This document shows positions 6,922 to 47,911 of a stretch of 64,000 nt of DNA, in pieces. Source of the DNA: an uncultured beta proteobacterium (lineage in GTDB: Bacteria; Pseudomonadota; Gammaproteobacteria; Burkholderiales; Burkholderiaceae_C). A program made the position numbers and the translations under genes. The notes beneath the pieces were generated by a model. That model saw only the letters and a program-made list of their open reading frames with translations, did no database searches and had not been told where the DNA came from. Every line of letters begins with the position of its first letter. The first letter of the stretch is position 1. The stretch covers positions 62,001-126,000 of the forward strand of contig CAISLN010000040.1 in assembly GCA_903886275.1 (NCBI GenBank). Direction: 5' to 3'.

Positions 6922-8157
6922 TCAAAAGGCTTCAATGCCCAGAATCTGCGCTGCTTGCAAAGCGGTGCTGCGCACCTGCTCAATGGTGCTGCCGGTGATG
7001 TTCAGGTGGCCCATCTTGCGCCCCTTGGCAGCGCGCAGCTTGCCGTACAGATGCAGATGCGTGCCCGGCAGGGCCAGCACCGCTTCCCAGGGCGGCACGC
7101 CACCCTCTGGCCAGAGGTCGCCCAGCAGGTTGAGCATGATGGCCGGGCTGTGCTGGCGCGGCTGCACCAGCGGCAGGTTGGCGAGCGTGCGCACCTGCAG
7201 CTCGAACTGCGAGACATCGCAAGCATCCATGCTGTAGTGGCCGCTGTTGTGCGGGCGCGGTGCCATCTCATTGACCACCAGACCACCCAGACCTTGCGCG
7301 GCCGGATGCGATTCATCGAGCACAAAGAACTCCACGCACAGCACGCCGACATAGTTCAGCTCGGCGGCGATGGCCTTGGCAGCGGCAATGGCGCGCGTGG
7401 CCAGTTCTTCCGGCACATTGCCCACGTACACCTCGGTCACGGCCAGAATGCCATCGCGGTGCAGGTTGCGCTGCAGCGGCAGGTTGACGCAGTCACCATT
7501 GGAAGCGCGCGCCACGATCACCGAGCATTCCAATTGCAGCGGCAACATTTTTTCCAGCACGCAGGGGAGTTGCTGCATGTCGCCCCAAGCCTGGGCCAGC
7601 TCGGCACGGGTCGTCACGCGGGCTTGGCCCTTGCCGTCGTAACCCATGCGGGCGGTCTTCAAAATGCCGGGCAATAGACTGGCCCCCACGCTCGCCAGTT
7701 GCTCGGCCGTCTCAATCACGGCGTAGGGCGCGCAGGGCACGCCGCAGCGCACGAAGTGGGCCTTCTCGGCGGCGCGGTCCTGGGCTATGGATACGCAGGC
7801 GGCGGCAGGGAACACAGGGCGGGTCTTGGCCAACTCGGCCAGGGCGAGGGCCGGCACGTTCTCAAACTCGGTGGTGATGGCCTGGGCCACCAGGGCCAGA
7901 CGCTCCAGTCCCGCCGGGTCGGTGTAGCTGGTCTGAATATGGTGGTGGCTGACGCGCCCGGCCGGACTCAGCGGGTCCGGGTCCAGCACGGCGGTAAAGA
8001 AGCCCATGCGCTGCGCGGCATGCGCGAACATGCGCCCGAGCTGGCCACCGCCCATCACACCCAGTGTGATTTCCTTGGATCCACCCAGTGTGATTTCCTT
8101 GGATCCACCCAGTGTGACTTCCTTGGAAGCGCCCAGTTCGTTCAACTCCGCCATCAC
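6922..8157 (-). CDS. purK: 5-(carboxyamino)imidazole ribonucleotide synthase
   Basis: [25 protein letters not shown]-grasp body; overlaps purE by 4 nt. Confidence 0.95.
8058..8129. repeat. 3 x 24-bp in-frame tandem repeat in purK 5' end
   Basis: cacccagtgtgatttccttggatc at 8058-8081 and 8082-8105, third copy with few substitutions at 8106-8129; encodes GGSKEITL-type repeats. Confidence 0.93.
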
Positions 8158-42508: not shown

Positions 42509-45500
42509 TCAGGCCCGCTGCACCTGCGCTTGGTGGTACTTGTCCAGCAACACCGTCCATTGCTGGCGCGCAGCCACCAGATGCCTTGCCTTGACGTGGC
42601 CGAAGCCGCGTATCTGCTCAGGGACCCGGGCAAAGGCGGCAGCGGCATCGCGGTTGGCGAGCTTGAGCGTGGGCAGCATGGCCTCTATCGCTGCGCGGTA
42701 CTCCACTATCAACGCACGCTCGCTGCGACGCTCTTCGCTGCGGCCAAACACATCGAAGGCGCTGCCGCGCAGGAATTTGCATCTGGCCAGCAAGCGCAGG
42801 GCGGTGCCCATCCAGGCGCCAAATCTTTGCTTTTGCAACTCACCCCTGTCATTGCGCTTGGCAAACAGCGGCGGCGCCAGGTGGTAATTGAGTTGGTAGC
42901 CGCCCTCGAACTTGTCCTGCAACCTGGCCGCAAAGTCGGTGTCACTGTGCAGACGGGCCACCTCGTATTCGTCCTTGTAGGCCATCAGCTTGAACAGGTA
43001 ACGGGCCACCGCCTCGCTCAGCGGCAGGGCCTCGCCAGTGCCCAATGCAGCTTCCGCGCTGCGCACCTTTTCAACAAAACCCCGGTACTGGTCGGCATAG
43101 GCTGCGTTCTGGTAGTCCGTCAAAAAACCCACGCGGTGCTGCACCAGCGCATCGAGCGCGGCCTTGCCCGTCTTGGGGCGCGGCGTGAAGGCAATCACCT
43201 GGGACGGCTTCAACAGGCGCTGCACAGCAGCCGGATCGACGGCGGCGCGGCAACCCCAGTCAAAGGCGGTCTTGTTGTTGTCCACCGCCACCGCATTGAG
43301 CTCGATGGCGCGCATCAATGAGGCGCGCTGCAACGGAATCCAGCCCTTTTGCCAGGCATAGCCCAGCATCATCGGGTTGGTATAGATGGCGTCTCCCAGC
43401 ACGTGGACTGCCAGGGCGTCGGCATCAAAGGTTCCGAGCCGATCGGCGCCAACCAGGTTGGCAATGTCGCTCAGGCACTGCTCGCCTGGATTGGCCCAGT
43501 CGGCATTGCGCACAAAGGCGGCGGTCGGTGTGCTGTTCGAATTGAGTGCCACATGGGTGCGTCCACTGCGCATGCGCACCAGGGTTTCCTTGCCCGCCAC
43601 CACGATGGGGTCGCAGCCGATGATGAGGTCGGCGCTGGCCATGCCCACACGCGTGGTGCGAATGCTGTCCTGCGTGGCGCCTATGAGCACATGGCTCCAA
43701 GTGGCACCGCCCTTTTGTGCCAGGCCACCGGCGTCCTGCGTGACGATGCCCAGGCCTTCCAGATGCGCGGCCATGCCCAGCAACTGGCCTATGGTGATAA
43801 CGCCGGTACCACCCACGCCGGCCACCACCATGCCCCAGACGCCGCCTGGCGTATTGGCCAGATCGGGAATCGCTGGCATGGCAGGCATTGGCGCAGACTG
43901 CCCCGGTGCGGCAGTGCCCTTGGGCTTTTTGAGCTTGCCGCCCTCCACCGTCACAAAGCTGGGGCAAAAGCCCTTCAGGCAAGACAGGTCCTTGTTGCAG
44001 CTGCTCTGGTTGATCTGGCGTTTGCGCCCAAGCTCGGTCTCCAGCGGCTCCACGCTGATGCAGTTGCTTTGCACACCACAGTCGCCACAGCCCTCGCAGA
44101 CCAGCTCGTTGATCACGACGCGCCGAGCCGGATCGACCAGTGTGCCGCGCTTGCGCCGACGGCGCTTCTCGGTGGCACAGGTCTGGTCGTAAATGATGAC
44201 GGTGGTGCCCAAGAGGGCGCGGAACTCGCGCTGCACCGCGTCGAGCGTGTCGCGGTGCTGAATGGCGATGCCTTCGGGCAGGCCCTTTACCTGCTCGTAT
44301 TTTTCCGGCTCGTCGGTGACGATGGTGATTTTTTGCGCGCCCTCGGCACGCATGCTTTGCGCGATCTGCACCACGCTGTGGCCCTCGGGCCGCTCGCCCA
44401 CCTGCTGGCCACCGGTCATGGCAACAGCGTCGTTGTACAGAATTTTGTAGGTGATGTTGACGCCCGCAGCGATGCTCTGGCGCACGGCCAACAGACCGCT
44501 GTGAAAGTAGGTGCCGTCGCCCAGATTGGCGAACATGTGTTGGTCATGGCTAAAGGGCTGCTGGCCGACCCAGGGCACGCCCTCGCCGCCCATTTGCGTG
44601 AAGCCCACGGTGTCGCGGTCCATCCAGATGGTCATGAAATGGCAGCCTATGCCGGCCATGGCGCGCGAGCCTTCGGGCACTTTCGTGGAGGTGTTGTGCG
44701 GGCAGCCCGAGCAGAACCAGGGCTGGCGCTCCGGGCCCTTGCCGCTGGTGAGTTCGATGGCATGCATGGCCTGTTCCTTGGCCTGCAGGATGGCGAGCTG
44801 CGCATCGATGCGCGCCGTGGTGTCCGCATCGAGCCCCAGCTTCTTGATGCGCCGGCAAATAGCGCGCGCAATCAGCGCCGGGTTCAGATCCGCATTGGCG
44901 CGCAGCAGCGTGTGCTCGCTCGGGCTGGGCACCGACCACTCGCCACCGGCGCCATAGCGGTCCTCGGTGTCCACCGCGTCAAACTTGCCCAGTACCGTGG
45001 GTCGCACATCGGCGCGCCAGTTGTAGAGTTCTTCTTTGAGCTGGTATTCGATGACCTGGCGCTTCTCCTCCACCACCAAAATTTCCTGCAAGCCGGTGGC
45101 AAATTCACGCGTCAACTGGGCCTCCAAAGGCCAGACCACACCGACCTTGTGCAGGCGAATGCCGATGCGTTGGCAAGTGGCATCGTCCAGCCCCAGGTCG
45201 AGCAGGGCCTGGCGTGTGTCGTTAAAAGCCTTGCCGCTGGCGATGATGCCAAAGCGGTCGTTCTGGCCTTCGATGACGTTGTAGTTGAGGCGGTTGGCGC
45301 GGATATAGGCCAGGGCCGCGTACCACTTAAAGTCAAACAGGCGCGCCTCCTGCTCCAGCGCATGGTCCGGCCAGCGGATATGCAGGCCGCCGCTCGGGAT
45401 GATGAAGTCGGTAGGCGTCTGGATCTGTACGCGATTCGGGTCCACCAGCACGGTGGCGCTGGACTCCACAATTTCCTGAATCGTCTTCATCCCCGCCCAG

Positions 45501-46144
45501 ACGCCGGAGAAGCGGCTCATGGCGAAGGCATGCAGCCCCAGGTCCAGAATCTCCTGCACATTGGACGGGAAGAACACCGGAAAGCCGCAGGCCTTGAAGA
45601 TGTGGTCGCTCTGGTGGGCAGCGGTGCTGCTCTTAGAGATGTGGTCATCGCCGGCCACGGCGATCACGCCACCCCAGGGGGTGGTGCCGGCCATATTGGC
45701 GTGCTTGAACACGTCCGAGCAGCGGTCCACGCCCGGGCCCTTGCCGTACCAGATGCCGAACACACCGTCGTATTTATTCGTGCCGGGGGGTGCGAAACCA
45801 AGCTGCTGTGTGCCCCACAGCGCGGTGGCGGCCAGCTCTTCGTTGACACCGGGCTGAAAGACGATGTGCTGGGCCTTGAGGTGCTTCTCGGCCTTCACCA
45901 GAGCCTGGTCATACCCACCCAGCGGTGAGCCACGGTAGCCGCTGATGAAGCCTGCCGTGTTCTTGCCCAGTTGCGCATCGCGCACACGCTGCAGCATGGG
46001 CAGGCGCACCAGCGCTTGCACGCCGCTCATAAAGGCCGGGCCTTGGGTCAGAGCGTATTTGTCGTCGAGGGTGACGCGGTCCAAGGCTTTGCGCAGGTAC
46101 TCGGGCAGCTCGGTCAGTAGGCGCGGGTCCAGTGGGGCATTCAT
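42509..46144 (-). CDS. indolepyruvate ferredoxin oxidoreductase, alpha/beta fusion
   Basis: 1211 aa; FISGYRGSPLGGYD N-terminus, ferredoxin-like CEGCGDCGVQSNC, GVGGTGVITIGQLLGMAAHLEG. Confidence 0.92.
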   Translation of the reverse strand: MNAPLDPRLLTELPEYLRKALDRVTLDDKYALTQGPAFMSGVQALVRLPMLQRVRDAQLGKNTAGFISGYRGSPLGGYDQALVKAEKHLKAQHIVFQPGVNEELAATALWGTQQLGFAPPGTNKYDGVFGIWYGKGPGVDRCSDVFKHANMAGTTPWGGVIAVAGDDHISKSSTAAHQSDHIFKACGFPVFFPSNVQEILDLGLHAFAMSRFSGVWAGMKTIQEIVESSATVLVDPNRVQIQTPTDFIIPSGGLHIRWPDHALEQEARLFDFKWYAALAYIRANRLNYNVIEGQNDRFGIIASGKAFNDTRQALLDLGLDDATCQRIGIRLHKVGVVWPLEAQLTREFATGLQEILVVEEKRQVIEYQLKEELYNWRADVRPTVLGKFDAVDTEDRYGAGGEWSVPSPSEHTLLRANADLNPALIARAICRRIKKLGLDADTTARIDAQLAILQAKEQAMHAIELTSGKGPERQPWFCSGCPHNTSTKVPEGSRAMAGIGCHFMTIWMDRDTVGFTQMGGEGVPWVGQQPFSHDQHMFANLGDGTYFHSGLLAVRQSIAAGVNITYKILYNDAVAMTGGQQVGERPEGHSVVQIAQSMRAEGAQKITIVTDEPEKYEQVKGLPEGIAIQHRDTLDAVQREFRALLGTTVIIYDQTCATEKRRRRKRGTLVDPARRVVINELVCEGCGDCGVQSNCISVEPLETELGRKRQINQSSCNKDLSCLKGFCPSFVTVEGGKLKKPKGTAAPGQSAPMPAMPAIPDLANTPGGVWGMVVAGVGGTGVITIGQLLGMAAHLEGLGIVTQDAGGLAQKGGATWSHVLIGATQDSIRTTRVGMASADLIIGCDPIVVAGKETLVRMRSGRTHVALNSNSTPTAAFVRNADWANPGEQCLSDIANLVGADRLGTFDADALAVHVLGDAIYTNPMMLGYAWQKGWIPLQRASLMRAIELNAVAVDNNKTAFDWGCRAAVDPAAVQRLLKPSQVIAFTPRPKTGKAALDALVQHRVGFLTDYQNAAYADQYRGFVEKVRSAEAALGTGEALPLSEAVARYLFKLMAYKDEYEVARLHSDTDFAARLQDKFEGGYQLNYHLAPPLFAKRNDRGELQKQRFGAWMGTALRLLARCKFLRGSAFDVFGRSEERRSERALIVEYRAAIEAMLPTLKLANRDAAAAFARVPEQIRGFGHVKARHLVAARQQWTVLLDKYHQAQVQRA

Positions 46145-46331
46145 GGGTGATGTCTCCTGTAGTGGTGCGTCGCCTTGTGGGCAACTCTCGGTGCGGCCCG
46201 GTCCGGGTAGGACGGGGTGCGGCGTGGAGGCAGTGTAGTGCAGACATTGCTTCTGTGTGCACGGGTCTTACCCTTGGAGAGCGGGTGGCATCGGCTGACC
46301 TCTACACACCTTGTGCGTGCCTGTGCATGTC

Positions 46332-46431
46332 GCGCCGCGAGCGGGTATGCCCGTGGCCTCATACTGCGGGTACGCACAAAACGAAGTTTCGGCGCAGCCA
46401 AATCGGCCCCGGGCACACCCGCTCACGTCGC
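46332..46431 (-). repeat. structured repeat copy A
   Basis: Arms 46339-46353 / 46410-46424 (14/15 pairing) extended on both sides; core 46356-46379, rc ttgtgcgtacccgcagtatgaggc. Confidence 0.75.
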
Positions 46432-46534
46432 ATAGTGGCGCGGTTGCTAGTCTGCAGGAATACCGATACCAAGAGCCCTGTCTCTGCCAACGGGTGTTGT
46501 GGTTGTTCCCTTGGCCGACCCAGCCCGCAGGACA

Positions 46535-46610
46535 CAGAGGTGGTGGGTGTCGGGGCCGACGACTTGTGCGTACCCGCAGTAGGAGGCGGCCCCGATACCC
46601 GCCGACTCTG
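46535..46610 (+). repeat. structured repeat copy B
   Basis: Arms 46542-46558 / 46587-46603 (17 pairs incl. two G-T) plus cagag/ctctg extension; core ttgtgcgtacccgcagtaggaggc at 46564-46587. Confidence 0.8.
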
Positions 46611-46636
46611 CACCAGACCGGCAGGCGAAAGCACAG

Positions 46637-47911
46637 TTAAAAGCAGGTGTGAATCGCCCCGGTGACCAAACCGTCATCCTGCGCAATCACCATCCAGCGC
46701 CACTTGTCAAAGGTGGTGCAGGGATGGGAGAGGCCCAGCACCACGCGGTCTCCTACGCAGGGCACCAGACCGGCAGGGTCAAACTGTAGATAGGCGTGCT
46801 GGTCGTTGAGCGCTGTGATGCGCCAGTCCGGCGGCGTGGCGACAACATCTTCCATGCGGCGCACACCGGCGCGGGCCAGACGCTGCGGCATCGGCAGCTC
46901 GATGTCGTAAGAGATGTCGCGCCTGCCGCAGCTGAGGAAGGCCAGGCCGGGCTCGGGCACCGACTGCACCAGGGTCCAGACCTCCAGCGCCGGCAGCAAA
47001 GAACTTTGCAGGCCTTCGCGCTGCTCCAACAACTTGAGGTAGCGCCGGTAATGGCCATGGTCGTGCGTGATGTAGCAGCCCGAGCGCAACACGCCTTCCA
47101 CCGGCTTGGACAGGCCTCCGGTGCGCAGCAGGGGCAGCACCAGATCGAACACCGCCGAGCCGCCGGCTGTGAGCAAAATCGAGTCGGCGGCAAACAGGCC
47201 GCGCGTGTCGCATTGGCGAACCACCGCCAGCACCCGGCGCACCAGGTCCGTGACGGCTGCCACATCGGGGGCGTTGTCACACTGGGCGGCATTGCCTTCG
47301 TAGCACTCCACACCGCACAGGCGCAGGACCGGTGAGACAGCGATGGCCTGGGCCAGCGCCATTGCTTCTTCCTGCGTGCGGCAACCGGTGCGCTTGCCCG
47401 CCACGCCGATCTCCAACAGCACATCAAACGGTGGAAAAGGCGCCTGGGTGGTGGACCATTGCTCGATCAGATGCAGTTGCGCCAGCGAATCGACCAGGAA
47501 CCAGACCTGCAAGTCAGGGTAAGTTTGCAGCAAATAACGCAGCCCCGCCAGATCGACCGGGCTGAGCACTTGGTTGGCAATGATGGCGCGGCGCACCCCG
47601 GCGGCCACGCCTATGCCCAGCTGAAAAATCGTAGCAAAACTCAGGCCCCAGGCGCCAACCTGCAGCTGCATGTGAAACAGCTCGGGCGACATGGTGGTCT
47701 TGCCGTGCGGTGCCAACAGCACGCCCTTGGCGTTGGCATAGTCTTGCATCCAGGCCAGGTTGTGCGCCAGTGCGCTGCGGTTCAGCACCGCCAAGGGATA
47801 GGCCAGATCGTCGGCCAGCAGACTCCACTGTCGCGCCGCTGCGTCCTGCGCCAGCAGCGGTGGTGCAAACAGAGGGAAGCTCTTGCAGGCGGAATTAAAA
47901 ACCGGATTCAT
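46637..47911 (-). CDS. PLP-dependent alanine racemase-fold protein (amino acid deaminase / D-threonine aldolase-like)
   Basis: NRSALAHNLAWMQDYANAKGVLLAPHGKTTMSPELF (PLP-lysine barrel), C-terminal GDRVVLGLSHPCTTFDKW. Confidence 0.85.
   Translation of the reverse strand: MNPVFNSACKSFPLFAPPLLAQDAAARQWSLLADDLAYPLAVLNRSALAHNLAWMQDYANAKGVLLAPHGKTTMSPELFHMQLQVGAWGLSFATIFQLGIGVAAGVRRAIIANQVLSPVDLAGLRYLLQTYPDLQVWFLVDSLAQLHLIEQWSTTQAPFPPFDVLLEIGVAGKRTGCRTQEEAMALAQAIAVSPVLRLCGVECYEGNAAQCDNAPDVAAVTDLVRRVLAVVRQCDTRGLFAADSILLTAGGSAVFDLVLPLLRTGGLSKPVEGVLRSGCYITHDHGHYRRYLKLLEQREGLQSSLLPALEVWTLVQSVPEPGLAFLSCGRRDISYDIELPMPQRLARAGVRRMEDVVATPPDWRITALNDQHAYLQFDPAGLVPCVGDRVVLGLSHPCTTFDKWRWMVIAQDDGLVTGAIHTCF

Follow-up and report, generated by a model that had tools for sequence, protein, structure and literature searches.

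In the window, that is the 64,000-nt stretch of DNA from an uncultured beta proteobacterium analysed here, two hairpins of opposite orientation lie between two genes. The pair comes after the stop codon of a D-serine dehydratase/racemase-fold gene (46637-47911, - strand) and sits before the start of an indolepyruvate-oxidoreductase-like (IOR) gene (42509-46144, - strand). This arrangement raises the question whether the hairpins represent a structured RNA, a cis-regulator of the neighbouring genes or a REP-like mobile palindrome family, the three options offered by a preliminary description of the locus. That description as a whole is partly supported by the present analysis. We consider it probable (about 0.68) that the two hairpins together form a single copy of a REP/REPIN-like element that is dispersed and non-autonomous. 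It appears REP-like in its mode of working, while membership in the REP family is not demonstrated.

Results

The core TTGTGCGTACCCGCAGTA occurs with 0 mismatches at 46362-46379 (- strand) and 46564-46581 (+ strand), exactly where the preliminary description had placed two matching cores, and chance alone would give 0.02 matches when as many as 3 mismatches are tolerated. The strong inverted repeat reported around each core was confirmed, since the core strands, folded as ssDNA with DNA energies, reached z-scores against shuffled sequences of -4.7 (copy A) and -6.5 (copy B); the complementary strands gave -1.6 and -3.9, respectively. The small inner hairpin TGCG-TACC-CGCA is present in both copies. 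The outer stem is real but had been described too short, its actual length being 25 positions per copy, and its inner part differs between A and B as claimed, although this is not special to these two copies, as the outer stem has almost no fixed sequence throughout the family. The features of the window are:

46324..46430, - strand: copy A, entire nested hairpin (covariance-model match, 58.2 bits, E 1e-7)
46405..46429, - strand: copy A, outer stem 5' arm (23/25 positions paired)
46334..46358, - strand: copy A, outer stem 3' arm (partner of 46405-46429)
46378..46399, - strand: copy A, 22-nt insertion GGCTGCGCCGAAACTTCGTTTT (minus strand) in the 5' internal loop, after GATTT
46365..46376, - strand: copy A, inner mini-hairpin TGCG-TACC-CGCA
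46431..46534, no strand: spacer separating the divergent hairpins A and B
46535..46619, + strand: copy B, entire nested hairpin (covariance-model match, 79.2 bits, E 6e-12)
46536..46560, + strand: copy B, outer stem 5' arm
46585..46609, + strand: copy B, outer stem 3' arm
46561..46584, + strand: copy B, internal loop and inner hairpin GACTT-G-TGCG-TACC-CGCA-G-TAGGA

A near-identical version of the 22-nt insertion of copy A was found in one other copy of the same genome, on contig C85. There (L112 ~7700-8000; L058:1759) it is carried by the plus copy of a second hairpin pair, and forms two extra mini-hairpins in the loop. The IOR site is lineage-specific, with hairpins in 3 of the 30 genomes read. 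In genome G018 (L241, L243) cheV lies directly before the IOR gene, at the place where the window genome has the racemase-fold gene and the hairpin pair; this junction was rejected as an empty site because it does not represent a clean excision.

Further copies had been expected, and the window's own genome holds 5 exact cores and 21 matches to the covariance model R1, with many more in relatives. In genomes other than the window's, 24 stretches contain an exact core, most of them from Rhodoferax, from Comamonadaceae MAGs and from one Polaromonas MAG. The R1 model matched in 80/100 genomes of the genus, in 37/201 genomes (32 genera) at the family level and in 5/250 genomes at the order level, 3 of these 5 being from the same family, so that the remainder of the order is nearly free of matches. 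Of the two cases outside the family, one (L157) has the loop GATTT..CATGA and may be a distant member, while this loop is absent from the other (L156/L160). When four genomes were scanned permissively, the matches numbered 67 (G101), 34, 21 and 23, counts that are somewhat high as they include the same hairpin read from the other strand; the richest genome, G101, has up to about 60 copies, and the range among relatives is 0 to about 60. Two kinds of match were dismissed as chance occurrences without a stem, namely the exact cores of Methylomonas and Marinobacter (L039, L042) and the relaxed matches L006, L008, L009 and L014-L016. No family match was obtained in the viral contigs, phages and plasmids searched, and no hairpin matched Rfam at the gathering threshold, the sole match being a ZTP riboswitch elsewhere in L193; this riboswitch (genome G428, L193:4316-4445) lies close to a hairpin pair. 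A description of the family was not found in the literature searched, and it is apparently undescribed.

For 26 copies a gap-free alignment was built, in which outer stem and inner hairpin share one common axis. In this alignment 24 of the 25 outer stem pairs are altered on both sides with 96.2% of all cells still paired, and the covariation score of 0.74 contrasts with 0.16 after shuffling and no more than 0.14 when partners are slid. Among 145 copies, pairing amounts to 92-99% over positions 4-25 and falls to background beyond about position 28, position 3 is frequently mismatched, and the sequence information at most positions of the stem is low; positions 26-40, the foot of the hairpin, contain no strongly conserved column (maximum 0.51 bits). 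A unit thus laid out comprises an outer stem of 25-28 bp of free sequence and a loop of 20-30 nt, in total about 75-80 nt. Constant features are the length of the outer stem and an internal loop GATTT / YATGA flanked by a C-G pair, which by its sequence seems to resemble a tandem sheared G.A motif. The inner hairpin varies in distant copies (TGCG-TACC-CGCA, CTGG-TAC-CCAG, GTGC-TC-GCAC and others), and such "dialects" recur inside one genome. The combination of GATTT..YATGA with a stem gave 141 matches and none in twelve loop-shuffled controls, and in the regions inspected, which had been chosen for hairpins, the family accounted for 111 of the 119 long stem-loops. In this hairpin family the sequence changes while the fold of the single strand is kept, a clear natural case of a conserved structure whose sequence can vary freely.

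If a fold is needed on one strand only, G.T pairs are tolerated on that strand and A.C mismatches are not. The preliminary description had noted that the odd outer pair of the window copies becomes G-U only on the core strand, which is correct and generalises to the whole family: for copies selected by their core alone, the ratio of G.T to A.C on the core strand is 50:12. Hairpins in uvrA showed 29:1 with the core strand antisense to the gene and 12:0 with the core strand sense, and tandem intergenic hairpins 26:2 and 32:8, respectively, all counts being drawn from related copies that are not fully independent. Since the bias is equal when the core strand is antisense, read-through mRNA cannot explain it. 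Covariation and strand-specific mismatches support the proposal that a single strand, either RNA or ssDNA, is selected for its fold, and the simplest reading is that the fold of the core strand is under selection, most likely as ssDNA; a dedicated transcript for each copy, antisense inside uvrA too, is unlikely. The antisense copies in uvrA, which keep G.T on the non-transcribed strand, provide a built-in test of the folding strand, and the question whether REP-type palindromes are maintained as RNA or as ssDNA becomes directly testable.

Hairpins are typically paired, and 61 of 66 neighbour pairs less than 500 bp apart are divergent (minus core left, plus core right), with a core-to-core spacing of 108-302 bp. 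The idea of kissing loops, i.e. a pair-specific match of the inner hairpins, was rejected, as the two hairpins of a pair resemble each other no more than randomly chosen partners from the same genome do. Copies are located mostly 3' of genes, beside many unrelated genes. With genes called by simple ORF length, the 74 intergenic sites comprised 23 convergent, 42 tandem and 9 divergent gene contexts, and the median distance from the hairpin edge to the closest stop codon, on the stop side, was 47.5 nt. In the window's own genome, a double-length UvrA of 2261 aa on contig C15 (L105:10603-17388) contains several in-frame hairpins in three linkers, and in-frame copies also occur in a VgrG-like gene; the same UvrA linkers are occupied in other genera as well (L188, L189, L191, L200). 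The presence of the same element next to numerous unrelated genes as well as within uvrA, strand-specific mismatches that are independent of the direction of transcription and the lack of an Rfam match at the gathering score speak against a locus-specific ncRNA or cis-regulator of the racemase and IOR genes. An intrinsic terminator was likewise rejected, because no T-run directly follows the hairpin: TTTT was present in only 4/190 copies at positions 25-60 after the internal loop, the first ~35 nt past the stem. In the same 190 copies the core strand is A/C-rich from 25 to 150 nt past the hairpin, fading by 200 nt, with A 0.31, C 0.34 and T 0.09 directly after the stem.

Both recent dispersal and long persistence can be seen. 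Genome G412 holds at least 17 copies of a homogeneous ~250-bp version with stems in common and nearly all with a spacing of 154 bp, which occur in both orientations, many in unrelated flanks, and look recently spread. The spacer of these elements (L227-L240) holds its own inverted repeat, GTAGCGCGCTACCGGTAGT ... ACTACCGGTAGCGCGCTAC. At orthologous sites across genera hairpins are retained while stems and inner hairpins are replaced, in a sample skewed towards filled sites because loci were picked for having hairpins. Base-exact empty sites were sought by syntenic comparison, and the orthologous sites were mostly filled with one or two hairpins; neither a base-exact empty site nor a target-site duplication was obtained for the hairpin family. 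An autonomous parent element was rejected, since the ORFs enclosed by two hairpins at a distance of about 1 kb belong to ordinary genes (DKNYY protein, superoxide dismutase, Na/H exchanger and fasciclin protein).

The search for a REP-associated TnpA, suggested in the preliminary description, yielded Y1_Tnp genes, mostly single and RAYT-type, in 93/100 genomes of the genus and in 18 of 20 genomes examined that are rich in hairpins, but not one of the Y1_Tnp loci read (L053 and L054 of the own genome, L125-L153, L271-L295) has a hairpin of the family within a distance of 1.5 kb. Many RAYT-type loci are flanked by GGGGTCAGA palindromes instead. Proximity is the usual criterion for membership in a REPtron, and with no hairpin near the RAYT-type loci read we do not claim such membership. 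A RAYT as adjacent partner is rejected by proximity, and the RAYT-type gene of these genomes does not suggest itself as the partner, while mobilisation at a distance by a RAYT-type enzyme is possible. In L132-L153 and L273-L295, AATTGGGGTCAGATTCCAATT palindromes often flank the RAYT-type gene, and these are candidates for its cognate repeat.

Discussion

A changing sequence with a kept folded shape speaks more for a small mobile palindrome than for a gene-specific RNA switch, and a REP-like palindrome family is the best supported of the three options initially offered. REPs have been reported in uvrA, as dimers of opposite orientation, 3' of genes and with G-T pairs (PMC3733652), and TnpA-REP of E. 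coli requires an unpaired bulge in the REP stem (PMC8266576). The present family shares with REP, BIME and REPIN sequences the dispersed hairpins, divergent dimers, compensated stems and G-T pairs (PMC3733652, PMC8266576, PMC6006769), as well as the position 3' of genes, the in-frame copies in uvrA linkers and an unpaired zone in the stem, which is essential in E. coli REP. However, with about 75-80 nt per hairpin it has about twice the length of a REP (20-40 bp, up to ~65 nt), the GT[AG]G foot is missing (GTAG at 5/193 and GTGG at 6/193 feet), it has a nested inner hairpin and the conserved GATTT/YATGA loop, no examined RAYT gene is near a copy, and copies number tens, not hundreds. A further trait of the TnpA-REP system, strand-specific recognition of the folded ssDNA by the transposase, would agree with the excess of G.T over A.C on one strand, which bears on it indirectly.

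Other dispersed palindromes are less similar. Rickettsia palindromic elements (RPE) are inserted in frame in genes, including excinuclease genes (PMC3733652), and resemble the hairpins in uvrA in this respect, but have another sequence, and their CGTC tag is absent here (13/193), where copies are mostly intergenic and paired. Like the bacterial MITEs ERIC, NEMIS and RUP, the hairpins are non-coding dispersed repeats near genes with strong folds, and the ~250-bp version of G412 falls into the size range of 70-300 bp, but the conserved part is the hairpin loops and not the termini, the stem sequence is free and no parent IS was found. Class 3 TnpA-associated structures are atypical high-copy hairpins near Y1 transposases with a CnGA foot (PMC6006769); CCGA often starts the loop of the present family, yet CnGA is not strictly kept (A for C in 42/145) and no such gene was found adjacent.

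As a REP/REPIN-like element, the core strand would fold during single-stranded phases of the DNA, such as on the lagging strand, in repair or in transcription. A putative trans-acting protein may then read the shape, with the unpaired internal loop as key and the length of the helix as ruler, and could move or copy the element as folded ssDNA, as is thought for TnpA-REP acting on REPs, the two hairpins of a pair presumably being the two ends of the element. Fixed copies would decay slowly and persist at orthologous sites due to their harmless position after stop codons or in protein linkers. Several points stand against the REP/REPIN-like reading: the persistence across genera exceeds what a purely selfish repeat needs, the REP tag is absent, no transposase gene flanked by hairpins was found, RAYT-type genes of the same genomes often having GGGGTCAGA palindromes instead, no target-site duplication or base-exact empty site was demonstrated, and the mismatch counts are drawn from related copies.

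A bolder and less probable reading is that the hairpins, as mobile or replicating ssDNA without a RAYT, form a class of their own that is new, in which a putative protein would read the tandem G.A-like GATTT/YATGA loop and the helix length and leave the stem free, so that inner-hairpin dialects differ between genomes at orthologous sites. Should mobilisation depend on something other than a RAYT, well-sequenced bacteria would still harbour a new enzyme for processing ssDNA that is to be found.

An RNA element at the 3' ends of genes, i.e. an mRNA stabiliser, RNase III site or bidirectional terminator, with a divergent pair working in either direction, would agree with the stable fold, the 47.5 nt to the closest stop codon, the 23 convergent, 42 tandem and 9 divergent contexts and the A/C-rich sequence that follows the hairpin at 25-150 nt on the core strand. 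We consider it unlikely, because the G.T excess is equal with the core strand antisense (29:1 in uvrA), the T-run is missing (TTTT in 4/190) and insertions lie within the uvrA coding sequence. Slightly less probable still is a host-maintained DNA site, an ancient repeat adopted by a DNA-shape-reading protein (nucleoid, gyrase or repair) and selected at fixed places. Orthologous sites filled across genera despite replaced stems and inner hairpins and the dialects recurring within a genome would be expected for such a site, but not a copy number of 0 to about 60 among relatives, an IOR pair in only 3 of the 30 genomes read or the homogeneous, seemingly recently dispersed copies of G412.

Template switching perfects quasi-palindromes and could keep the arms complementary without selection, in agreement with the nearly perfect stems; as the sole cause such neutral repair is most improbable, since it cannot explain the kept mismatched internal loop, which argues strongly against it, nor the constant stem length or the preference for G.T over A.C on one strand. 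Integron attC sites also combine conserved structure, free sequence and strand specificity, but an attC-type or other site-specific ssDNA recombination site is very improbable, as conserved bases are missing at the stem feet, where R boxes would sit, and the hairpins form divergent pairs beside ordinary core genes instead of same-direction arrays.

With this family, taken as REP/REPIN-like, one more lineage joins those in which REP-like insertions have, oddly, turned up in uvrA. In genome G452 (L200:8275, 8407 and 10309) the double-length uvrA was also observed with long hairpins of a quite different loop, GCAAGGAATYGGAGCYTGCGACTGACG, and the family may thus have a second type of loop.
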